Source: an uncultured Poribacteria bacterium
GTDB lineage: Bacteria; Poribacteria; WGA-4E; WGA-3G
Assembly (NCBI GenBank): GCA_951812525.1
Contig: OX638316.1
Location: 4,148,506 to 4,212,505, forward strand
Direction of reading: 5' to 3'
DNA length: 64,000 nt
Shown here: positions 45,931-60,231 of the stretch, piece after piece
How the letters are laid out: every line of letters begins with the position of its first letter
How positions within the stretch are numbered: the first letter of the stretch is position 1
Notes under the pieces: generated by a model
Told to the model about the DNA's origin: nothing
Databases searched by the model: none
What the model saw: the letters and a program-made list of their open reading frames with translations, nothing else
Program-made: the position numbers and the translations under genes

Positions 45931-46734
45931 TCAATCTCTTCCAACAGACATGCCCCAACGACCACCGTCAACGTGGATCGTCTGACCCGTGATGTAGGAG
46001 GCATCGTCGCTGAGAAGGAAGGCAATAGTGGCTGCAATCTCTTCGGGTCCACAGCGGCGTTTCATAATGCACGAAACGATGGGTGTCTCCTCTAACTCCT
46101 TTTTCCGAGCGGCAGGATCGGGTGCTCTCCCAAAGTGCATCTCTGTGACAACCCACCCCGGTGCAACGGCGTTCACGCGAATTCCATAGTCGACGAATTC
46201 ATACGCCATTGTCTTCGTGAGAGAGACCAATGCGGATTTAATGGCATCGTAGACCCATCCTCCGGGTCTGCCGAGGTATCCGCCCTCTGATGAGAGATTG
46301 ACGATGGCACCACCTTCCTGTTTTAAGAGGGGTAATAGATGCTGCGTGATGACGACCCAACCGCGGAGACCGATTGAGGTTTCGGGTCCCCAAGTTGAAA
46401 CCCAGCCACCGTCTTCAATTCTGCCACCTCCGGCAATAGCAGCGTTATTAACAAGGATATGAAGGGCGGAAAACTTTTCGGCGACAGTACTTGCTGCGGA
46501 GATGACGCTTTCATCATCGGCGAGATCAACTTCTACAAAAAGAGCCTTTCCACCTGCTTCTTCGATTTCGGCGACTGCTTTGTTCGCCATTTCGGCGTTG
46601 ATATCGGCGATAATAACGTGTGCACCTTCGGCTGCGAGTCGGTTGGCTGTCGCTCTACCGATGCCCGAGGCTCCACCTGTTACCAGGGCGACTTTATCAG
46701 TAAAACGGATTGTTCCCCATTGGTTTGTGTTCAT
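45931..46734 (-). CDS. SDR-family oxidoreductase, copy A of tandem pair
   Basis: 267 residues of the classical short-chain dehydrogenase type: TGGASGIGRATANRLAAEGAHVIIADIN (NAD loop and Asp for NAD(H)), NNAAIAG, catalytic Ser in NLSSEGG, Tyr/Lys in VYDAIKSALVSLTK, and the end SYITGQTIHVDGGRWG. It oxidises or reduces a secondary alcohol or keto group, substrate unknown. AAAGGAG precedes the ATG. About 80% like the copy at 46802, with most differences in the mid-protein substrate loop. Confidence 0.88.
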   Translation of the reverse strand: MNTNQWGTIRFTDKVALVTGGASGIGRATANRLAAEGAHVIIADINAEMANKAVAEIEEAGGKALFVEVDLADDESVISAASTVAEKFSALHILVNNAAIAGGGRIEDGGWVSTWGPETSIGLRGWVVITQHLLPLLKQEGGAIVNLSSEGGYLGRPGGWVYDAIKSALVSLTKTMAYEFVDYGIRVNAVAPGWVVTEMHFGRAPDPAARKKELEETPIVSCIMKRRCGPEEIAATIAFLLSDDASYITGQTIHVDGGRWGMSVGRD

Positions 46735-46801: not shown

Positions 46802-47602
46802 TTAACTACGGACGGACATGCCCCAACGTCCGCCGTCAACGTGGATGGTCTGTCCTGTGATGTATGAAGCGTCGTCACTAAGGAGGAATGCAATAGTGGC
46901 TGCGATCTCTTCGGGTTTAGCAAGACGTTTCATGATACACGAAGTGATTGTTAATTCCTCTAATACCTTTTTTTGGGTAGCAGGATTGGGGGCTGTCCCG
47001 AAGTGCATCTCCGTAACAATCCACCCGGGGGCGACGGCGTTCACACGTATTCCGTATTCGACGAATTCCTGTGCCATGGTTTTGGTGACAGAAACCAGAG
47101 CGGCTTTAATCGCATCGTAGACCCACTGTCCGGGCCTGCCGAGGTATCCTCCCTCTGATGATAGGTTGACGATAGCTGCACTTTCCTGTTTTAAGAGCGG
47201 GAGTAGGTGCTGCGTGATGTGTACCCAACCGCGGAGACCGATTGCGGTTTCAACATCCCAATTAGGTAGCCACTCGCCATCCTCAATTCTGCCGGTTCGT
47301 AAAACAGCAGCATTATTGACAAGGATATGAAGTGCAGAAAACTTTTCAGTGACAGCACTTGCAGCGGCACTAACGCTCTCATCATCAGCGAGATCGACTT
47401 CTACAAAAAGAGCCTTCCCACCTACTTCTTGGATTTCAGAGACAGCCTTATTTGCCATGTCGGCGTTGTTATCAGCGATGATGACGTGTGCGCCTTCGGC
47501 GGCGAGTCGGTTCGCTGTTGCTCTGCCGATACCGGAGGCACCGCCTGTTATCAAAGCCACCTTATCAGTAAAACGGATTGTTCCCCATTGGTTTGTGTTC
47601 AT
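46802..47602 (-). CDS. SDR-family oxidoreductase, copy B of tandem pair
   Basis: 266 residues, paralogue of 45931: the first residues MNTNQWGTIRFTDKVAL are identical and YDAIKAALVSVTK carries Tyr/Lys. Asp in IIADNNADMA points to NAD. Differences cluster at residues 100-120 and 195-215 (SCIMKRLAKPEEIAAT), regions that shape substrate choice. The pair may have started from one enzyme and then split in function. No strong promoter seen upstream; a tandem repeat block fills the space to 47817. Confidence 0.88.
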   Translation of the reverse strand: MNTNQWGTIRFTDKVALITGGASGIGRATANRLAAEGAHVIIADNNADMANKAVSEIQEVGGKALFVEVDLADDESVSAAASAVTEKFSALHILVNNAAVLRTGRIEDGEWLPNWDVETAIGLRGWVHITQHLLPLLKQESAAIVNLSSEGGYLGRPGQWVYDAIKAALVSVTKTMAQEFVEYGIRVNAVAPGWIVTEMHFGTAPNPATQKKVLEELTITSCIMKRLAKPEEIAATIAFLLSDDASYITGQTIHVDGGRWGMSVRS

Positions 47603-48805: not shown

Positions 48806-51800
48806 TTAGAAATACGATCTACCGAGTGAGTTACCGACACCGAAGGCGTTGTACGGCGCGCCTGCTGGTAAGGTTCGGATGCCCCAAGTTTCAGTGGTGG
48901 CATCGTAACCGACACCCATTGAAATCGCTGGTTCCTGAATCAGACTAACTTGGAATGTGAAATCTTGGCGGACGTTGTTGTAAGGTGAGTCGTCGCGCTT
49001 AATACCGATCCGATTCCAAGAGATGCGGAGGTTCCAATCGTGAAGGTTTCGTGTCATCATAATGCGCTGTGAATAAAACTGCTTCTCAATCGGATAATAG
49101 ATGAGACTCACATCGAATTCAAGGTTGCGGCTGAAACGGTAGCGACCAGTAGCAGTGATAGAACGGGAGGCTCTCCTTGAGGTGTGGCGTTTACTGAAAG
49201 AACTCCCAACGCTGACATTCCAACTCTGTCGCGTGTACCGGATATTGGAACGGAAACCGACCATTTTGAACTGTTTTTCGTCAACTGGATGTGGATTCGG
49301 GTCGTGGGTAAAGCGTATCGTAACATTTAGGTTTCGACTGGGAAGCGGTATAAATGTAAAATCGCTTTCTATAGGCTCATATTTACGCTTATATAAGGGG
49401 TCAAAGTCGGTGAAATCGGCGGTCAGTCGTGTATCAAAATATAAGACGCGGTGTGGTGATTGACCGCGTGGGGTCTTTATTTCAATGCTGGTATTGAAGT
49501 TGTAAGTGAGCATCTTCCGTTCATAGAAATAGGTGCTGGGTCCGAAAGGATAGAGGTCATCATTCTCGTCAACAGGGGGTTGGTAATCAAATCGGAGTGA
49601 GGACTGCATTTCATGGCGCAATTTCCGTAGTCCTGGGATATAACTGACATCGAAGATACGGAAGAGGGTATTTGTTGCGTTTGCGTTGATACTGTAAACC
49701 CCACGTATAATGTTTCTATTCTGCGCCTGATCTCGGTCGTGATAGATGGCGTTTGTGTTGAGATAGAGGTTAAGCTGGAGTTCGCGGAGCGGCGTAATAA
49801 GGAGTGTTGATTGCTTACGGACATCGAATCCGAGGTCTACTGTCTGTAGAAATACGTCTCTTTCCTCACCTGCTTTACCGCGATAGATCCCTCTATAGAA
49901 GTTTCCGAGTTCAACATCTAAATCAAGACTGGTGCTTTCGAGCGTTGGGAGTGTAAACATTGAAAGGAACGGTGTTTCAGTTTTGAACCTATCGGCGAGG
50001 GATAGCATACCGTCGTTGAGGGTTTCAAAGAGTGGGAAAGCACTGACCCGCATCCGTGAAAAGTTCAAAGTGAGTTGTGGGAGTTTCTGCAGCGAGGTAG
50101 TACCTTCGCCTGTGAAATCGTGAATGTGGCGCACTTCAAGTCTGCCAGTGAAGTCCCCGATAGTTTCGCGCGAAAACCTGAGATTGCCGTCCGGATCAAC
50201 ATCCTCTGGACTAAAGGCAGAGAAAGCCGTGCCATAGGTGAGTATTCCGAAAGTGTTGAGTGTAGATTCACCCGGGAGTTGCAATTCTTCTTTGTAATTA
50301 AGGGCGCGCAGCTCTGTCCTACCATTAAAGCTGATAGGGCGTCTACCGGCTTCTCGGCTGTCCCACGGTGTAAAGAAGGATTGGGTATGCGCCCACCGCG
50401 CAATCCAACTTCTACCGATCCGGGTGGCGTTCTGCCGTTCATAAGAGAATCGGTCAGCCCCGTAGAAGTAGATGTCGCCTCGATACGCTCGTTTTCGATC
50501 AATTTTGATAAGGCGAAACGATTTACTCGTCCGAATGGGACGGCTACTGTGTTCACCGGCGTACAATCTTTGCGCTTCTGAAGCCACGGCACTTGGGTCT
50601 TCCCATCTTCCGCGAAAGCCCTTCTTTCTATAAACACCTTCTTCGGCTTCCTCTTCTTCGGCCTCCTCGTCTGAGTCGACTACATCTTCGTCCTGAACCT
50701 CGCCTTCCTGCTCATCTTCTGACACAGCTGCTTCTGCTTCTTCAGTTCCTTCTTGGGACTTGCTTTCTTGCTCATCTTCTGGCTCAGTCGCCTCCGCTTC
50801 TTGGGTTTCCACTTGAGGCGCAACTTCTTCCTGATTTTCCGGTTCAGTTACCTCCGCCTCTTGGACTTCTTCCTGAGTCTCGTCTTCTTGTTCATCTTCT
50901 GGTTTAACTACCTCGGTATCTTGGGTTTCTTCGTCTGTATCCGTCGTATCAGTTGCCTGTGCTGCTTCTGGGACTGTAGGTGGGACATCTGTCTCTTCTT
51001 CTACATCGCCGGATTCAGAGTCTTGTGTCTCAGCAGCTTCCTCAGTTTCCTCTTGTACCGGATTCATTATGCCTTCGTAAAAAGCATCCCATTCCGCCTC
51101 AAATCCTTCAGCGAGTGCCTCAAAAGTGGGGGTCTGTTCTTTTTCGATTAATTGGAAAATGTAAAACCCTTCCGGCGTTGAAATAGGACGGCGTTCAGTT
51201 ACATCGCCAGGGTTTTCCATACGTCTGACGGAGTATTGCCAAGAAGACGGCATCTCATTCAGCATCATGCCTTCCCCCTCATTGATCTCGGTTAGGGTGG
51301 CATTCACATACTCAGAGAGTACATCAGCACGTTCTTTAAGTGATTCAAAGGATTCACCTTCCTCAGCACGTAGTAGTAGGTCGTCTGCTAATTCGCGTAG
51401 GATTGTCTCGGTTTCCTCGCTTGCAGTGATATTGATGTCAATACGGCGGAGCCTGACTTCACGTTCACCGTAAACGTCAATCACGCGATCTGCTTTGAGG
51501 ATATGGAAAGCGGATTCGGTTTGTACAACAGGGCTAATTTCGCCTTCTTGTAAAGCGAAGGCGACTTCCTCCAGAACAGGATCGAGTTTCGGGTTCTCAT
51601 CGTTATCGGTCTCACCGGGAACGAGGAATCCTATATCACCGCCATCGTAGCGGGTATCGGAGTGGTCGGAGTTGCTTTGTGCGATCTGTGCGAAGTCGGC
51701 GTCTTCCTCTAAAGCCTGCGTGCGGATTTCCTCAGCACTCTCTTTGGCACGTTTGACATCATCATCGGTGATTTTATATTCAAGGAAAAGCTGCTTTAGC

Positions 51801-53032
51801 CAATAACGATCATATTCACCGTCGAGGCGTTCTTGTAATTCGGTCGCCTTTTCCTCCAATTTGGTGCGTTGATTCGGCGTTGCATCGGGCGGAATAGGGA
51901 TATGAATCTCTTGATACTTGGTATCATTAAAGCGATACTTGCCTTCAAATCCGAAGCCTTGTCCGCGTCGGGCACTTCTGTCGTAAAGGAGCGCTGCGTC
52001 GTAGCGGCGTTTGCGCACAAGCGGTTGGATGATACTGAGATACGGTCCCTGATAACTATCGGTTCCGACTTTGACGATAATCTTGGCAATCTTTCCTTTG
52101 CGCAGGTCCCGACGAATAGCAGGGAAATAGAAGAGAGGAAAACCACCAATGCGTAAGACGATGTTCTTGGCAATCAGCTCCTCGTTCATCCGAACGATGA
52201 CCTCAGAGACGCTAAAATAGTAGTGCGGATATTTCAGGGAACAGGTCGTCAAAGTCGCGCCGCGGACATAGGATTTATTCTCCTCTATCTTAAAAATTTC
52301 ACTACCACCAAAGAACCAAGGATCACTATACGTAAATCCATCTCTGGCGATCCCCTTTTTGTTTTCGAGATTGAAAACAAGCTCATCGGAGTAGGTTTCT
52401 TCATCACCAACCTTCAGGTGAACATTTCCTGAAGCGCGCATTAGATTGTCATCAAAATCAGCCCAGATGTGATCGGCGCGCAGGACGACATCCTCGAATT
52501 TGACGAGGGCGTTTCCGTGAATCGAAACAAAATTATCGACCATCGAGACATTATCGCCATCACCAATCACCGTGCCTTCTTCAGGGACATCGGTTTCTGG
52601 ATTCAACCGTTCAGAGGCAGATCCTTCTTCCTCTGTTTCATCTGCTGCATCGGGTTCCTGAGTTGTGCCATCAGCGGGTGGTTGAGGCGGTGCCTCGTCT
52701 GGCGTTCCTTCTGTAGCGTCGGGTTCTTGCGTCTCATCTGTAGCGTCGGGTTCCTGAGTTTCTTCAGTCGGTGCCTGTTCCTGCTCCTGAGTTTCTTCAG
52801 TTGGTGGTTGCGCCGGTGTTTGTTCCTGCTGTGGTTCCTCTTGTGCGATAAGCACCTGTAGCGGACAGAAGAAGCAGACAACGGCGAAAACGCCGACGCT
52901 TATACTCGCTATTGAGAAAATACTAGCAAGTACAGAACGGCAGCGCGGTGCAAGGTTCCGTGTCCTTACGCGCCTTTTCTTAGAGTATGGATGTTGGTGA
53001 TAGGTAGGCAAATCGGATTGGCTCTTTTTCAC
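48806..53032 (-). CDS. lptD: LptD/OstA-type outer-membrane protein with internal parvulin-like domains
   Basis: 1408 residues from a GTG 7 bp after the surA stop. Plan: signal helix about 34-63; acidic P/Q/E-rich stretch 64-150; OstA/LptA-like jelly roll 155-310 (VSIHGNALVKFEDVVLRADHIWADFDDNLMRASGNVHLK); first strands of the barrel 310-370; a parvulin-like domain about 405-520 (GGDIGFLVPG, FALQEGEISPVVQTESAFHILKADRV); a second, weaker one about 525-655; acidic linker 660-800; barrel 800-1408 ending in F, typical for outer-membrane barrels. LptD inserts LPS with LptE. A normal LptD has about 800 residues and no isomerase domain. Its neighbours are three parvulin/SurA-like genes, so it may carry its own folding helper. 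Identity is from motifs; a different OMP role is possible. Confidence 0.82.
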   Translation of the reverse strand: MKKSQSDLPTYHQHPYSKKRRVRTRNLAPRCRSVLASIFSIASISVGVFAVVCFFCPLQVLIAQEEPQQEQTPAQPPTEETQEQEQAPTEETQEPDATDETQEPDATEGTPDEAPPQPPADGTTQEPDAADETEEEGSASERLNPETDVPEEGTVIGDGDNVSMVDNFVSIHGNALVKFEDVVLRADHIWADFDDNLMRASGNVHLKVGDEETYSDELVFNLENKKGIARDGFTYSDPWFFGGSEIFKIEENKSYVRGATLTTCSLKYPHYYFSVSEVIVRMNEELIAKNIVLRIGGFPLFYFPAIRRDLRKGKIAKIIVKVGTDSYQGPYLSIIQPLVRKRRYDAALLYDRSARRGQGFGFEGKYRFNDTKYQEIHIPIPPDATPNQRTKLEEKATELQERLDGEYDRYWLKQLFLEYKITDDDVKRAKESAEEIRTQALEEDADFAQIAQSNSDHSDTRYDGGDIGFLVPGETDNDENPKLDPVLEEVAFALQEGEISPVVQTESAFHILKADRVIDVYGEREVRLRRIDINITASEETETILRELADDLLLRAEEGESFESLKERADVLSEYVNATLTEINEGEGMMLNEMPSSWQYSVRRMENPGDVTERRPISTPEGFYIFQLIEKEQTPTFEALAEGFEAEWDAFYEGIMNPVQEETEEAAETQDSESGDVEEETDVPPTVPEAAQATDTTDTDEETQDTEVVKPEDEQEDETQEEVQEAEVTEPENQEEVAPQVETQEAEATEPEDEQESKSQEGTEEAEAAVSEDEQEGEVQDEDVVDSDEEAEEEEAEEGVYRKKGFRGRWEDPSAVASEAQRLYAGEHSSRPIRTSKSFRLIKIDRKRAYRGDIYFYGADRFSYERQNATRIGRSWIARWAHTQSFFTPWDSREAGRRPISFNGRTELRALNYKEELQLPGESTLNTFGILTYGTAFSAFSPEDVDPDGNLRFSRETIGDFTGRLEVRHIHDFTGEGTTSLQKLPQLTLNFSRMRVSAFPLFETLNDGMLSLADRFKTETPFLSMFTLPTLESTSLDLDVELGNFYRGIYRGKAGEERDVFLQTVDLGFDVRKQSTLLITPLRELQLNLYLNTNAIYHDRDQAQNRNIIRGVYSINANATNTLFRIFDVSYIPGLRKLRHEMQSSLRFDYQPPVDENDDLYPFGPSTYFYERKMLTYNFNTSIEIKTPRGQSPHRVLYFDTRLTADFTDFDPLYKRKYEPIESDFTFIPLPSRNLNVTIRFTHDPNPHPVDEKQFKMVGFRSNIRYTRQSWNVSVGSSFSKRHTSRRASRSITATGRYRFSRNLEFDVSLIYYPIEKQFYSQRIMMTRNLHDWNLRISWNRIGIKRDDSPYNNVRQDFTFQVSLIQEPAISMGVGYDATTETWGIRTLPAGAPYNAFGVGNSLGRSYF

Positions 53033-53039
53033 GTATCTC

Positions 53040-54344
53040 TTACTCTTTCAGTTTTATTTCGATGTAAGCGTTCGAGATGAGGCTGTCGGTGTATGCGTTC
53101 CATTCTTCTTGAAAGCGCTGCTGGCGGAGTATAGAAATAATCTGTTGCTTCTCAGCGTCAGTGAGATCTGGGCTGTTTCGCTCGTCTACCTTGAAGATGT
53201 GGAGTCCAGACTCCGTTTCATGAGGATTACTGTATGCCCCTGCTGCCAGAGATTCAATGATTCTCCGGGTTTTGGGATTGAGTTCGGCTAAGGACCGAAC
53301 CCCAAGGTAGCCGCCGTTTTCTCGTGTCTCGGCATCATCGGAAGCTGTCTTGGAGAGTGTATTAAAATCTTCTCCATTTTCTAATTTTTTGAAAATCTCA
53401 ACGCTACGCTGGCGTGCTACTTGCATCGCCTCCGAACTAATTTCAAGCGGGACGATGAGGTAACGGAATGCGATCATTTTAACATCTTTTGCCTCAACTT
53501 TAAAAAGGTAGAGCCCTTCATTTCCTTCAACAGGTTCACTCACCTCACCGGCTGCTAACTCCGTTAGCACGCCCTGAAATATGTCTGGAAATCTGCTGAG
53601 TTCCTCAGTGGTAGCTTCTATGAGGATCCCAGCCTGTGAAGTAGGGTTTTGTTTTGAGGCGTAACGCTTCGCGATCTCTTCAAAATCAGCACCGTCTGCT
53701 GATATTTCGTTACGTGCTTTCTCGACGTTGCTGTAAGCAGTGTCCCGGTCGGCTTGGGTCGGTTCAAAAGCGATAAAGATATGCCGCATCTCTACATTAT
53801 CGGCTTTAACGGGCAATTGATCTCGATTTTCCTCAAAGAATTTTTGGATTTCACTGTCCCGTACCTGCAATCGAGGGACAATTCTCCCCATCACAAGTTT
53901 CTCGGCTTTAAGATTGCGTTCTGCTTGTTCACGAAAAGCGAAGAGCGTCATTCCTTCTTTATTTAATTGTTCTTTGAATTCCTGGTCGGTTTCAATCTGG
54001 TATCTATTTTTAAATTCTTGGATGTACTGCTCGACTTCTGCGTCGTTAACAGTAATTTTCAATGTCAGTGCTGCCTCCAAAAGCAACATCTGACGGATCA
54101 AACGGTCAAGGAGTTCTCCGCGTTGTCGTTCGGCTTCGCTGCGTGCTTCGCGCTCACTAAAGCGATAAACCTGCTGAAGTTCCACTGCGCGCTGGTTCAC
54201 CAAGATATCGAGTTCCCGCTTGGTTACAATATCGTCATTGACGTAAGCGACGATTTTGTCGAAAGTGCGGGCGGTGGCACTTGTTAGTCCACAGGTCATG
54301 AGTATCAGACAGATGGTGAGATAGGCGGCCGTTTTATAAATCAC
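53040..54344 (-). CDS. surA: SurA-like periplasmic peptidyl-prolyl isomerase
   Basis: 434 residues from a GTG at 54344 with AGGAGGT 7 nt upstream; a longer frame to 54581 would run into the previous gene. Signal peptide 1-22 (AAYLTICLILMTCGLTSA). SurA_N-like chaperone part: TFDKIVAYVNDDIVTKRELD. Two parvulin domains: VEMRHIFIAFEPTQ..GEVSEPVEGNEGLYLFKVE (about 215-318) and FRYLIVPLEIS..GGYLGVRSL..SGLHIFKVDE (about 320-405). SurA escorts outer-membrane proteins, LptD being its best known client. The lptD gene follows after 7 bp, the same pairing as in Proteobacteria. Confidence 0.88.
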   Translation of the reverse strand: MIYKTAAYLTICLILMTCGLTSATARTFDKIVAYVNDDIVTKRELDILVNQRAVELQQVYRFSEREARSEAERQRGELLDRLIRQMLLLEAALTLKITVNDAEVEQYIQEFKNRYQIETDQEFKEQLNKEGMTLFAFREQAERNLKAEKLVMGRIVPRLQVRDSEIQKFFEENRDQLPVKADNVEMRHIFIAFEPTQADRDTAYSNVEKARNEISADGADFEEIAKRYASKQNPTSQAGILIEATTEELSRFPDIFQGVLTELAAGEVSEPVEGNEGLYLFKVEAKDVKMIAFRYLIVPLEISSEAMQVARQRSVEIFKKLENGEDFNTLSKTASDDAETRENGGYLGVRSLAELNPKTRRIIESLAAGAYSNPHETESGLHIFKVDERNSPDLTDAEKQQIISILRQQRFQEEWNAYTDSLISNAYIEIKLKE

Positions 54345-54368
54345 ATGTATACCTCCTATACTAAGATA

Positions 54369-54392
54369 TGGCGCGATCTGAAGATCGCGCCA
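54369..54392. repeat. GC hairpin between two chaperone genes
   Basis: TGGCGCGATC-TGAA-GATCGCGCCA, 10 bp stem. It is a member of the TGA-loop hairpins (19446, 41444) with another stem sequence. It may tune the level of the downstream surA-lptD part. Confidence 0.55.
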
Positions 54393-54408
54393 ACAACTAT
54401 TGAAAAGA

Positions 54409-55470
54409 CTACTCTTCGGGTTCATCCTCAGCAGGTGTTTCTTCTGCTTCGGGTTCATCCTCAGCCGCCTCCTCCTCGGAAGCCCCCTCTGGAATGCGAT
54501 CGATATAGGTTTTGACTTCAGCGCGTTCACGGAGTTGGAGAATCCACCCATCCATGAGTTCCTGTCGTCTTTCGCGCTCAACCTTACGCTCTACATTTCT
54601 ACGGACTTCCTCTTCATCAAAAGGCTTCTGATAAGCGTCACGCGCCTCATCCTTACGGAACATCATGTAGTACATCTGTCCTTGGACATCAACATCAATA
54701 ACGCCATCATGCATCGTCCCAATCTCAGCGGCGAATGCTGCATCTAAGAAGGGTTCGGTTCCGGTTGGGAAGGAGTCTCGACTGATATAGTCGGTATCGC
54801 CAGGGCTGGCAGGATTTGCGCCGGGACCGACGAGTTCACCTTTGTCGGAAAGCTCCTGAGCGACTTCGGCAATGTCTCTTCCACCTACGATTTGTGCGTA
54901 AGCTTCGTCTGCCCGTACTTTATCGGTGAGGGTTATACACATAAGCCTCACCTGTGCAGGACGAACGTAGTCTTCCTTATGTGCTTCGTAGTATTCGAGG
55001 TAATCCTGCTCGTTCAAAGTGAGTTTATCGTCAACTTCTTGAGCGGTAATTCTCTTAACCATCAACTCATGGAGATAGTCTTGGACCTTCTTGATAATTT
55101 CTGGGTCTTCATTGAGTCCTTGGTCGCGAGCGAGGTTAAGGATCAAGCGGCTCTCCGCCATGAGGAGCATATAGGTTTCCAAGCCCTCTTTGTCCTGATA
55201 CTGCCGCTGTTTGTATTCTGGAAGTTCGCTAATCTCTTGCATCATCTCTTCAAGCGTGATGTGCTGCTTGCCGTTCCATTCAAATTCTGCGATGACAGTG
55301 CCATCGGCACCGATTGCCTTGTCCCCACAACTATAAAAGACGGGGTGTATAGCAATAACGGCGAGTAAAAGCAGAGGGATAACCGGGGATCTATTCTGTC
55401 CCACACGCTGATCGCTACGGGGACCCCGACCATCCATTTTGCCTATGAAGGATATAATTCCTGTGAGCAT
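54409..55470 (-). CDS. Parvulin-like lipoprotein (PrsA/SurA-type)
   Basis: 353 residues from the ATG at 55470 (AAAGGAG about 12 nt upstream); a frame to 55527 has no ribosome site. A hydrophobic stretch with lipobox (LLLLAVIAIHPVFYSC, Cys about 48) is preceded by an unusually long polar N-terminus. The chaperone helix part (EFEWNGKQHITLEEMMQEI, YLEYYEAHKEDYVRPAQ) is followed by one parvulin-like domain, VRLMCITLTDKVRADEAYAQIVGGRDIAEVAQELS..DTDYISRDS. A charged tail ends in many E. No strict catalytic set is visible, so it may act as holdase only. Likely anchored to the periplasmic face of the outer membrane. Confidence 0.8.
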   Translation of the reverse strand: MLTGIISFIGKMDGRGPRSDQRVGQNRSPVIPLLLLAVIAIHPVFYSCGDKAIGADGTVIAEFEWNGKQHITLEEMMQEISELPEYKQRQYQDKEGLETYMLLMAESRLILNLARDQGLNEDPEIIKKVQDYLHELMVKRITAQEVDDKLTLNEQDYLEYYEAHKEDYVRPAQVRLMCITLTDKVRADEAYAQIVGGRDIAEVAQELSDKGELVGPGANPASPGDTDYISRDSFPTGTEPFLDAAFAAEIGTMHDGVIDVDVQGQMYYMMFRKDEARDAYQKPFDEEEVRRNVERKVERERRQELMDGWILQLRERAEVKTYIDRIPEGASEEEAAEDEPEAEETPAEDEPEE

Positions 55471-55539
55471 TTTTATTCTAACTCCTTTTCTCCGTCCAGT
55501 TTTAGCACTGGAGGGTTGCTCCCACAAAATGGGAATAGG

Positions 55540-56511
55540 CTATTCGTCTGACGCCTCGGTTTCCGCCTCTTCTTCAGGTTGCGGTGGCTCTGGAATATTT
55601 TCAGGATAGGTCTTTAGTTTACCTTTTGCCGAGATTTCTTCGACCCACTCGTTGATACGCTCGCGCTTCTTTTCGCGCTCAATGGTGCGCACAACATCAT
55701 CTTTAACTTCCTCGAATTCCTGCTGACGGTCGGGCTGATGCTCCTCTTTACGGAAGATGAGGTAGAAGACAGCGTCGTTAACCTCAGTTTCAAAGACGGA
55801 ATCTGTCATTTCGCCGACCTCCTGCGCGAAGGCGGTTTCAATGAAGTCTGCCCAACGTGCAGAAGAGGATTGCGTGAAGAAATAGGTATTGCCGGGGTCG
55901 TCGCGATTCGTGCCGGGTCCAGAAGCAAGTTTCCCAGCTTCGGAGAGCTCCTTTGCCATCTCAACGATATCTTTTCCAGCTTTGATAGCATCAAGCGTTT
56001 CATAGGCAAGGTCTTCATCGTCGAGTGAGATGCAGGTTGCGCGAACTTTGGCTTCCTCAACGTACTCACTGAGATTTTCCTGATAATAAGCCATGAGCTC
56101 TTCGTCGGTATAGACAACTTTGGCATCTACCTCAGCCTCGGTTAATTTTTCAACCATAAGCTGATGCGTATAATCCTCAAGTTTCTTGAGATGTTCAGGG
56201 AGCGTATCAAAACCGTCATCAGTGGCACGTAGGATTTTGAGACGTTCCTCAATTAATTCCTCGAGATACTCGGCTTTATCCGCTCTGTTCTCATAGTTCT
56301 GTTGCCGGTAGACAGGCAATTCAGCAATAGCGGCGTTTAAATCCGCCAGTGAGATTTGATAGGATTCGTCGTTCCATTTGTACACTGCCAAAATCACCTT
56401 GCTTTCGTCCACAGCAGGCATGGATTGTTCATGAGCATCGGACTGAACAAACCGCCATGTGAGCAGGCAGGTCACAACGACAATTACAAAAATAGTAATC
56501 GTTTTTTTCAT
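55540..56511 (-). CDS. Parvulin-like periplasmic chaperone, membrane-anchored
   Basis: 323 residues from the ATG at 56511 (AAAGGAAG about 12 nt before; the ATG at 56532 has none). One N-terminal helix MKKTITIFVIVVVTCLLTW, then SurA_N-type helices (SLADLNAAIAELPVYRQQNYENRADKAEYLEELIEERL, YTDEELMAYYQENLSEYV) and a parvulin-like domain (VRATCISLDDEDLAYETLDAIKAGKDIVEMAKELSEAG..NTYFFTQSS). It is a paralogue of the next gene (54409), about 30% alike with the same order of blocks. It ends in an acidic P/E tail. Substrates would be exported barrel proteins. Confidence 0.8.
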   Translation of the reverse strand: MKKTITIFVIVVVTCLLTWRFVQSDAHEQSMPAVDESKVILAVYKWNDESYQISLADLNAAIAELPVYRQQNYENRADKAEYLEELIEERLKILRATDDGFDTLPEHLKKLEDYTHQLMVEKLTEAEVDAKVVYTDEELMAYYQENLSEYVEEAKVRATCISLDDEDLAYETLDAIKAGKDIVEMAKELSEAGKLASGPGTNRDDPGNTYFFTQSSSARWADFIETAFAQEVGEMTDSVFETEVNDAVFYLIFRKEEHQPDRQQEFEEVKDDVVRTIEREKKRERINEWVEEISAKGKLKTYPENIPEPPQPEEEAETEASDE

Positions 56512-56724
56512 GTGATGAAAACTTCCTTTCATTTAGGACTTACAGACGAAAAGCGTGGTATTTAAGACACGAAATCGGCGTAAGTCTTATCGTTTTACAC
56601 ATTCATAGCCTACGGGAACTGAGACACAACCCCTTTGTCGTACCAGATAAATGAAAAACGGAAAGACTCGGTTCTTTGTGTCGTGAACTCCCGTTGAGAG
56701 ATTATGGACGGATTTGTGCCGTCC

Positions 56725-59700
56725 CTATAGATCAACAAACAATTGCAAAGTTTGCTGCAATTCGGTTAACATATTTGCGCCAGTCATCCCTGGCATGCGA
56801 ATTTTGAGTTGCGCTGGTGGTTGCAACTGAAGGTTCTTATTTTGGTGTACTATTTCAACAAATTTCTTCACATTAATTCGTGGGTTTTGTTCCTCAAAGG
56901 TAACCTTTATCTGTTCGTTTCCAGCAACAACAGCGGTGATGCCCAAGCGGTTACTGAGTTGCTTAAGGTTTGCAACTTCAAGCAACATTTCAACAGGTTC
57001 AGGAATGGAGCCGTATCGGTCTTGAAGCTCCTCGCGGAGTTCCATGAGCGCATCATCATCTTTCAGTCCAGCAATTTTTTTGTAGACAGAGACCTTTTGG
57101 CGGCTGTCCGGTACATAGTCATCGGGCAGATATGCCTCAATAGGCAAGCTGATGCGTGTCTCGACAGTTTCCTCGACCTTTTCACCCTTGAGTGCCATTA
57201 CTGCTTCTTCAAGGAGTTTACAATAGAGTTCATAGCCGACGGTGACGATATGCCCATGCTGCTGAGCGCCGAGGATATTCCCTGTACCGCGAATTTCGAG
57301 ATCCCGGAGTGCTATTTTAAAGCCCGAACCGAGGTCGGTGAATTCCTCAATGACTCGGAGTCGCTTCTGCGCGCCTTCGGTAATTGCGTGATGCTGCGGA
57401 TAGAACAGATATCCGTAAGCCTGGGCAGTAGCTCTGCCGACGCGTCCGCGCAACTGATAGAGCTGCGCCAAACCGAGAGCATCTGCCCGATTAATTAGGA
57501 TCGTATTAACATTGGGTATATCAAGTCCTGATTCAATAATCATTGTACAGACGAGGATATCGTGCTTGTGGCGGACAAACTCAAGCATAACGGATTCCAA
57601 TTCCCGTTCTGGCATTTGTCCATGTGCGACAGCGACGCGTGCCTCCGGTACGAGTTGCTGAACAGCCAATGCGATACTCTGGATATCCTGAACGCGATTG
57701 TGAACAAAGAACACCTGTCCATCGCGACTTAATTCTGCGGTGATCGCGTCTCGAATGACCTCGGAATCGTAAGGCATGACATGGGTCTGAATTGGCAATC
57801 GATCTGCTGGCGGTGTATTGATAACGCTGAAATCCCGAATACCAACAAGCGACATGTGGAGTGTGCGGGGAATCGGGGTAGCAGTCAACGTAAGCACGTC
57901 AATTGTCTCTTTGAACTGCTTGATTTTCTCCTTGTGTTTAACGCCAAAACGATGCTCCTCGTCAACTATCAAGAGACCGAGATTGTCAAACTTCACTGTT
58001 TTAGAAAGCAGGCTGTGGGTTCCAATAACGACGTCCACAGTGCCTTTTGCCAATCCTTCCTTAATCTGCTTTACTTCCTTCGGTGTCCGGAACCGGTTTA
58101 GCATTTCGACATGGACTGGGAACGATTGAAAACGTTGTTCAAAGGTATCATAGTGCTGGAGTGCGAGAATAGTCGTTGGAACGAGAATGGCGACCTGCTT
58201 TTCTGACATGACGGCTTTAAAGGCTGCACGGAGAGCGACCTCTGTCTTTCCGTATCCGACGTCACCACAGACGAGCCTATCCATCGGTTGTTCACTTTCC
58301 ATATCTGTTTTAACGTCTTCAATGGCTTGAAGTTGGTCATTGGTTTCCTGATAAGGGAATAGGGCTTCAAACTCGGTTTGCCAAGGGATTTCAGCAGGGA
58401 AACTATACCCTTTTCGCGCCTGTCGGAGGGCGTACAATTTAAGGAGTTCATCTGCCATCTCTTGTATTGATTCTTTGACACGTCCCTTGCGACGCTGCCA
58501 AGCGACTCCACCGAGACGGTCGAGACGCGGCTTATATGTTTCATCCTTGCTACCGATGTATTTTTGAACGAGATCAACTTGATAAGTAGGTACGTAGAGG
58601 ATATCGTCTGCACTGTATTTGAGAATCAAAAAATCTTGTGATTTGCCGTCAATGTCCAATCGACGTATGCCTTCATAAATGGCAATACCGTGGGAGACGT
58701 GCACGACATAGTCTCCAGGCTTGAGATCAATGAGACTGAGAATAGGTGTTCCATCTGTGACTGAGCGACGGCGAATTGGACGGTGCTGACGATTTCCAAA
58801 GAGTTCGTCCTCAGAGATGACAACAAGATTCAGTGATTCATTGAGAAAGCCTTGACTAATTGCACCAACACTGATGTCAATATCCGGTGGCAACAACTCA
58901 CGTTCGGCTAAAATTTCAGACACCCGCTTGGATTGCTGTGGGGTTTCACAGAAGAGATGGACCTGATGTCCTTGCTGTGCCCATGTTTTCATCTGATTGA
59001 TAACCGTTTGATAGTTACCAGATGGTAAAGCAAGTGGCTTCATCTCAAAAGGCAGTGGGACCAATTTGTTGTCCGTGATTTCACGCGGGGGTGCTAAAGA
59101 CGAAGAGATGATTGGATACTTCTCTATTTGAGCATTAAGGGTCTCAAAAGGCACCAAGAATTTATCGGGCGACACAACGAAATGAGATTCATCGAGTTTT
59201 TGCTCATACAATTCCTGCATCTGCTCGTGCATGTGTACTGCTTCACGCTTCTGCCACTGCGGTTCAATCAAGCAGATAATCGTGTCATCAGATAGATAGT
59301 CCGTGAGGAGTTCGGTTTCCGGCGTAAGCATCGACAAAAATGCGTCAATTTCGTTATTTAACGTACAACTGGCAAGTCCATAGGGAGAAGATGCGCTTTC
59401 TGTTAGGCACTGGGTCATTTCCCAGATAGCATTTTTGAGTTGGGGTGTTGCCCGTCCCTGAACAAGAGCATCCGTTTGTGTCTGCCAATAATCCATCGAC
59501 ATCTCAACAGAAAAGATCTCGCGGAGCGGCGTGAGCGTCACGGATTCAAGAGATTCCGTTGACCGTTGCGAGATTGGATCAAAAGCACGGATGGCATCAA
59601 TTTCATCTCCGAAAAATTCGATCCGCACCGGGGCATCAGCAGTAAGCGGATAGACATCTAAAATATCGCCTCTGCGTGCGAATTCGCCCTTGACTTCTAC

Positions 59701-60231
59701 GAGTTCAACATTCTGATACCCACCGCACATCAGCGTGAATGCAATGTCGTCAGGATCAATCTCATCGCCAAGATTAAGTACGCGGCAGGCGGCAGCCAAA
59801 CGTGTACGCGAGGGCAGCTTGTAAAGCATAGCTTGGCTTGTCGTGACAACGACGCTTCGTTCGTGATGGACCAGGCGATCAAGGCATCGCATCCGATCTG
59901 CGACGATATTTTTGGGTGGGGCAATCCCCTCAAAGAATTTGCGATGCCAACTTGGGAAAAGATTCAGTTCTGGATGCGTATCCGAGGTCGGTGTAATTTC
60001 TAAAGCCGGGTATGCCCGGTATGTGCAGATTTCTTCGAGTATCTGTTCAGCTTCACGCTGTGAGGGAAGCACAATTAGGAAGGGTCTCTCTGGAAAATCA
60101 TCAATTAGGGTTGCTAAAACATAGGAGGCAGACGCGTTCACTAATCCTCTGAGCCACGGTAGCTTTTTTCCGTCTTTAAGACGTGACACGAGCGTCTGAT
60201 AATTTTCTGTTTTGCGTAAAAGTTCTATCAT
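56725..60231 (-). CDS. mfd: Transcription-repair coupling factor Mfd
   Basis: 1168 residues. N-terminal UvrB-homology part (about 1-350), RNA polymerase-binding CarD-like module (LKPGDYVVHVSHGIAIYEGIRRL near 500), helicase motor with Walker A RLVCGDVGYGKTEVALRAAFKAV, DEEH box LLIVDEEHRFGVKHKEK, motif III TLTATPIPRTLHMSL, motif VI VQLRGRVGRATAQAY, and C-terminal TRCF domain (EAYLPDDYVPDSRQKVSVYKKIA). Mfd removes stalled RNA polymerase and recruits UvrA. It heads the row of outer-membrane chaperone genes, on the same strand and 210 bp from the next. The ATG is preceded by the repeat-like CTGATAACTGACAACT with no ribosome site, so the start may be off by some codons. Confidence 0.95.
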   Translation of the reverse strand: MIELLRKTENYQTLVSRLKDGKKLPWLRGLVNASASYVLATLIDDFPERPFLIVLPSQREAEQILEEICTYRAYPALEITPTSDTHPELNLFPSWHRKFFEGIAPPKNIVADRMRCLDRLVHHERSVVVTTSQAMLYKLPSRTRLAAACRVLNLGDEIDPDDIAFTLMCGGYQNVELVEVKGEFARRGDILDVYPLTADAPVRIEFFGDEIDAIRAFDPISQRSTESLESVTLTPLREIFSVEMSMDYWQTQTDALVQGRATPQLKNAIWEMTQCLTESASSPYGLASCTLNNEIDAFLSMLTPETELLTDYLSDDTIICLIEPQWQKREAVHMHEQMQELYEQKLDESHFVVSPDKFLVPFETLNAQIEKYPIISSSLAPPREITDNKLVPLPFEMKPLALPSGNYQTVINQMKTWAQQGHQVHLFCETPQQSKRVSEILAERELLPPDIDISVGAISQGFLNESLNLVVISEDELFGNRQHRPIRRRSVTDGTPILSLIDLKPGDYVVHVSHGIAIYEGIRRLDIDGKSQDFLILKYSADDILYVPTYQVDLVQKYIGSKDETYKPRLDRLGGVAWQRRKGRVKESIQEMADELLKLYALRQARKGYSFPAEIPWQTEFEALFPYQETNDQLQAIEDVKTDMESEQPMDRLVCGDVGYGKTEVALRAAFKAVMSEKQVAILVPTTILALQHYDTFEQRFQSFPVHVEMLNRFRTPKEVKQIKEGLAKGTVDVVIGTHSLLSKTVKFDNLGLLIVDEEHRFGVKHKEKIKQFKETIDVLTLTATPIPRTLHMSLVGIRDFSVINTPPADRLPIQTHVMPYDSEVIRDAITAELSRDGQVFFVHNRVQDIQSIALAVQQLVPEARVAVAHGQMPERELESVMLEFVRHKHDILVCTMIIESGLDIPNVNTILINRADALGLAQLYQLRGRVGRATAQAYGYLFYPQHHAITEGAQKRLRVIEEFTDLGSGFKIALRDLEIRGTGNILGAQQHGHIVTVGYELYCKLLEEAVMALKGEKVEETVETRISLPIEAYLPDDYVPDSRQKVSVYKKIAGLKDDDALMELREELQDRYGSIPEPVEMLLEVANLKQLSNRLGITAVVAGNEQIKVTFEEQNPRINVKKFVEIVHQNKNLQLQPPAQLKIRMPGMTGANMLTELQQTLQLFVDL

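Follow-up and report, generated by a model that had tools for sequence, protein, structure and literature searches.

An LptD protein with nested parvulin-fold domains built into its barrel in Candidatus Poribacteria

LptD is the essential, near-universal lipopolysaccharide (LPS) translocon, and its slow assembly serves as a model of how the outer membrane is built. The locus described here raises the question of whether an LptD can carry parvulin domains within its own chain, and what such domains would do there. It lies in a window of 64,000 nucleotides (contig OX638316.1, positions 4,148,506 to 4,212,505) from the genome of a Candidatus Poribacteria bacterium, a single contig of 5.06 Mb. An earlier note, made from the letters alone, had read an LptD/OstA protein of 1408 residues from this window, with one clear and one weaker parvulin-like domain and an acidic linker. 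The same open reading frame (ORF) was confirmed as lptD: it occupies exactly 48806–53032 on the minus strand, starts with GTG and has no internal stop. This is the sole LptD found in the genome, in which no second copy was detected. We conclude that the protein is a true LptD into which three parvulin-fold domains are built; these are nested, and their insert takes the place of the periplasmic β4–β5 turn of the barrel. Of this structural part of our explanation we are close to certain.

Identity of the protein as LptD

Alignment of the Poribacterial family with E. coli LptD by hhalign covers residues 72–222 of the latter (E = 4e-5), including the motifs FTSC and VPIFYSP. In the window protein the OstA/LptA-like periplasmic domain (residues 146–330, positions 52043–52597) carries the LptD motifs TTCSL..PH and GGFPLFYFP, and is preceded by a putative signal peptide after a long basic n-region (residues 1–61, 52850–53032) and by a low-complexity, acidic N-terminal tail with a net charge of −26 (residues 62–145, 52598–52849). 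A profile of the Poribacterial OstA domain matched all 50 LptD loci taken from other phyla, a set chosen so that the longest ORFs were among them. The linker-free orthologue L092 was modelled with AlphaFold2 (predicted local distance difference test, pLDDT, 77.6), and the model has approximately 26 barrel strands as counted by DSSP. In a Foldseek search with this model, the 15 best PDB matches were LptD structures (top match 4q35, E = 3.5e-21), followed by a peptidyl-prolyl isomerase (PPIase) and SurA; LptA (2r19) was also matched. Barrel strands β1–β4 are placed at residues 331–371 (51920–52042), and the barrel from β5 to the C-terminus, which ends in Phe, at residues 851–1408 (48809–50482).

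Of the two barrel families that had been proposed for checking the flanks, PF04453 gave no match anywhere in the window genome, and PF19838 matched 8 of 26 orthologues (best E = 1.3e-5) but not the window sequence itself. The genome encodes other components of the LPS pathway, with profile matches for LpxC (E = 3.9e-84) and LptF/LptG (1e-86 and 8e-81), as well as Omp85 proteins. No LptE (PF04390) was matched in the window genome by a search that finds the LptE proteins of E. coli and Bacteroides; LptE is short, divergent and hard to detect, and its absence by profile is weak evidence. An LptE partner was treated as a feature of known complexes and the two inter-domain disulfides as a feature of E. 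coli LptD, neither of them as a criterion for membership of the LptD family. In the window protein and its orthologues only 0–3 Cys follow residue 60, and because of this the disulfide-switch checkpoint of E. coli probably cannot operate in Poribacterial LptD.

The protein thus resembles E. coli LptD/OstA (PDB 4q35, 4rhb) in its OstA N-domain, its barrel of ∼26 strands, an RRG strand motif and an adjoining surA gene. It differs in having ∼480 residues where E. coli has a tight β4–β5 turn, in lacking the cysteines for an E. coli-type double disulfide and in having no detected LptE.

Three nested parvulins in the β4–β5 turn

The clearest domain of the insert, P1 (residues 405–520, 51473–51820), has the motifs GGDIGFL and FHILK and has lost the first catalytic His. 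PF00639 matches it at residues 422–515 (E = 3.8e-21), where the earlier note had placed its parvulin, within the interval 380–660 in which a lack of any match would have spoken against that claim. P2 (residues 521–633, 51134–51472), the weaker parvulin that had been suspected after the first barrel strands, is degenerate in the window protein, and from that sequence alone PF13616, which reports two stretches, gives it an E-value of 0.004, below the cut-off. The L092 orthologue gives 1.6e-24. Both domains proposed from the sequence are therefore real, but a third, split one had been missed. This outer parvulin, P0, encloses the P1–P2 tandem in the loop between its helices α1 and α2, so that its two halves flank the tandem. 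Its first half, β1 and α1 (YQEIHIPIPPDATPNQRTKLEEKATELQERLDG), lies at residues 372–404 (51821–51919). The second half starts with α2 (TPTFEALAEGF) at residues 634–655 (51068–51133) and resumes at residues 799–850 (50483–50638), ending in SFRLIKIDRKR directly before β5. The rejoined P0 matches PF00639 in the window (E = 4e-5, which passes the curated cut-off) and, with E-values of 3e-15 and 1e-18, in L092 and L134, respectively. Using a profile built only from SurA and PpiC domains, none of 893 shuffled sequences scored above 7.2 bits, compared with 18–60 bits for P0, 35–94 bits for P1 and 34–103 bits for P2. An insert of only one or two parvulins is ruled out, since the rejoined P0 scores far above the shuffles.

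The acidic linker of ∼140 residues described in the earlier note is real (residues 656–798, 50639–51067), but it lies inside P0, splitting its second half, and not between domains. It comprises 143 residues, 45% of them Asp or Glu, with a net charge of −62. Its length varies from 32 to 174 residues in the order f1–f4, and it is absent in families f5–f8 and in L134 (f10).

The structure prediction that had been suggested as a check gave a pLDDT of ∼90 for the insert. In the AlphaFold2 model of the window protein itself, values are mostly 88–94 over P0, P1 and P2 and fall to 30–45 over the linker, which is predicted to be disordered. Foldseek returned LptD, followed by PPIases and SurA; the best match of the insert to a solved structure other than LptD was the PPIase 8hm4, and SurA was matched as well. 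The fold of the insert domains is thus predicted to be that of a parvulin. The 8hm4 protein (complex 8hm3, PPIase–BfUbb) has a similar fold but is a separate protein and not part of a barrel. In the L092 model, single strands at residues 217–239 (23 residues) and 536–560 (25 residues) span barrel and P0: β1 of P0 prolongs barrel strand β4, and the last strand of P0 continues into β5. Once the insert is removed, the Poribacterial sequences on either side can be aligned through the junction with LptDs from other phyla, which have a tight turn there. Since the OstA domain of LptD is periplasmic and precedes strand 1, and the insert follows the fourth strand, the β4–β5 turn should by parity be periplasmic.

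A further LptD parvulin occurs in a later barrel turn, probably β10–β11, in a second class of Poribacteria (about residues 754–879 of the L134 ORF and 257–380 of the L136 ORF). Its order is circularly permuted, the second half preceding β1–α1.

Comparison with related genomes, as had been proposed, showed the fusion to be phylum-wide. The profile found a match in each of the 85 Poribacteria genomes searched, and nearly all of them, the second class included, carry the fusion as an intact frame; only weak matches were obtained in G015, G027 and G049, which are incomplete or contaminated assemblies. In G066 (L067) a TGA/frame break separates the OstA part from the rest of LptD, probably through an assembly error. 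Outside the phylum, none of the 50 LptD loci had a parvulin. A junction-spanning profile was also run against 387 genomes, and among the matches listed (down to ∼E = 1e-28) none from a non-Poribacteria genome covered both LptD and parvulin. In the two closest pairs of sequences, the ratio of nonsynonymous to synonymous substitution rates (dN/dS) is 0.07–0.10 for P1/P2, against ∼0.06 for the barrel and 0.25 for the linker; in a third pair P1 has a value of 0.22. Purifying selection on the parvulins is strong (dN/dS about 0.05–0.2), and the insert is therefore maintained.

These data also bear on the possibility that two genes were joined artificially in assembly or annotation, to which we assign a vanishingly small probability. 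Nothing was found in its favour; the same intact frame occurs in independent genomes of two classes, single-contig ones included, and dN/dS is ∼0.1. A frame error, which had been raised as a possible cause, is ruled out by the presence of the same intact fusion in almost every genome of the phylum.

Relationship to SurA and the neighbouring parvulin genes

The P1–P2 tandem is colinear with residues 176–409 of E. coli SurA (hhalign, E = 1.3e-12), resembling the P1–P2 arrangement in that chaperone (PDB 1m5y). Unlike SurA, LptD lacks the N/C chaperone core, has the extra split parvulin P0 around the tandem and has lost the pairs of catalytic His. No match to SurA_N was found in LptD; this core is encoded in the adjacent gene. 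LptD is distinct from SurA, and a separate surA (53040–54581, minus strand; N core, P1, P2 and C helix) is still encoded next to lptD; surA ends 7 bp short of the start of lptD, and its true start is probably near 54300, within the listed ORF. Upstream, also on the minus strand, lie the genes for two PpiC-like parvulin proteins, the first (54409–55527) between the second and surA, the second (55540–56532) adjoining mfd (56725–60231), which encodes the transcription-repair coupling factor and bounds the conserved cluster on its upstream side. This order, mfd–ppiC–ppiC–surA–lptD, is conserved.

In the deep family f5, the SurA encoded beside lptD is reduced to the N core and C helix (∼190–200 residues when mature), with P1 and P2 cleanly missing in all five genomes in which the gene was seen (L089, L093, L094, L096 and L099). 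The f5 LptD retains the insert, and no full-length SurA was found elsewhere in the f5 genomes. This natural loss, beside a parvulin-bearing LptD, parallels the engineered core-only SurA of E. coli. The same family has, upstream of surA, a single ORF of ∼650–740 residues in which the two PpiC-like genes are fused (L089 4645–6861, L093 9681–11624, L094 11913–14030, L096 4045–6177, L099 4070–6184).

The parvulin module is likely derived from SurA, and the data are compatible with a duplication of the neighbouring surA. In a tree of the individual domains, which is based on few columns, P0, P1 and P2 group separately, and most LptD P1 domains of the main class group with the SurA P1 of the deepest class (support 98/82).

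Elsewhere in the window, two very similar short-chain dehydrogenase genes stand in tandem (45931–46734 and 46802–47602), probably from a recent duplication. An Rfam search of the window gave no match.

Possible roles of the module

The earlier note had suggested that LptD, with prolyl isomerase domains built in, may act as its own chaperone. The isomerase part was not supported. In the sampled clades, the position of the first active-site His is Q, E or R in every P1 and E, D, W or M in every P0, and no LptD parvulin has both catalytic His, which several domains of the neighbouring SurA proteins do have. For this reason, enzymatic activity of the LptD parvulins is, judging from these residues, unlikely. 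That the module is an active prolyl isomerase for LptD loops or other envelope proteins would fit the good PF00639 scores of P1 and the GGDxG and FHILK motifs that it keeps in the order f1–f4, and loss of a catalytic His is not always fatal to PPIase activity; given the replacement of the first His in all P1 and P0 domains, we nevertheless consider this improbable. The module more probably acts as a chaperone or in docking, without enzymatic activity, than as an isomerase. In SurA itself, PPIase activity seems to be dispensable for the assembly of outer-membrane proteins (OMPs) (PMC9820271).

Our best explanation, to which we give even chances when taken as a whole, is that the module assists the assembly of LptD itself, as a built-in chaperone and docking arm that is SurA-like and non-catalytic; the functional part of this explanation, the chaperone and docking arm, we put slightly short of even. 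In the predicted fold P0 extends the β4/β5 barrel hairpin into the periplasm and bears the SurA-type P1–P2 pair; the module would bind LptD's own unfolded strands during slow barrel assembly and possibly also the β-barrel assembly machinery (BAM) or the SurA core. In the order f1–f4 the acidic linker may serve as a flexible, solubilising segment, and prolyl isomerisation would probably not be the module's job. In E. coli, LptD folding is strictly SurA-dependent (PMC9820271) and assembly is slow, taking about 20 min (PMC13067283). Auto-chaperoning of LptD is consistent with the homology to SurA, with the location of the insert in the periplasm and its conservation, and with the parvulin-less SurA of f5. 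More tentatively, the parvulin half of SurA may have been moved or copied into LptD, its most demanding client, in the ancestor of Poribacteria, such that LptD brings its chaperone along in cis; one family would then show a full division of labour, with a free SurA core and LptD-embedded parvulins.

Several observations weigh against this account. The parvulins of f5 LptD are more degenerate exactly where SurA has lost its own, and most of the phylum still has SurA, so that the module is no replacement for it. The P0 of the window is weak by itself (E = 4e-5). Nor does the domain tree, with its few columns, decisively favour an origin of P1–P2 from SurA: the approximately unbiased test (AU) allows a single LptD clade (p = 0.19). 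For the more specific proposal that the insert folds the plug or loops of LptD, nothing was found in support. In addition, the module could equally serve the function of mature LptD.

One such function would be structural: the module might plug or brace the barrel from the periplasm in the mature translocon, replacing LptE (and LptM), and not act as a folding aid. The missing PF04390 match, the modelled position of the module on the periplasmic rim and a constraint nearly equal to that on the barrel fit this view. The absence of so short and divergent a protein by profile counts for little, however, a parvulin would be a large plug for the lumen, and the parvulin fold and P1–P2 order suggest SurA-type client handling; we regard this role as unlikely. 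We are somewhat more sceptical of an outer-membrane-tethered chaperone station, in which LptD would offer its parvulins in trans to other OMPs passed on by the SurA core; f5, with a SurA lacking both parvulins and no full-length one found, would be the clearest case. The two further parvulin genes in the cluster are in keeping with it, and in E. coli P1 of SurA contacts OMP clients and P2 binds BAM (PMC9820271). Against this stand the most degenerate LptD parvulins, found in that same family, and the low copy number of LptD in known systems; a substitute would also be unneeded if, as PMC9820271 cites from Behrens 2001, E. coli SurA without its parvulins works in vivo.

The fusion of LptD with parvulins is real, phylum-wide and apparently unreported: in the open-access papers searched we found none linking Poribacteria with LptD, nor any on an LptD–parvulin fusion. 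The nesting is striking: a barrel turn holds a parvulin, which in turn holds a pair of parvulins, and the models show that a barrel hairpin can continue into the sheet of a soluble domain. As a natural fusion of SurA-type domains with LptD across a whole phylum, it offers a test of what the SurA parvulins contribute to a barrel client, a debated question, and the natural core-only SurA of f5 is an additional evolutionary experiment. The fusion suggests that LptD in Poribacteria carries part of its folding helper with it, not relying only on a separate SurA.

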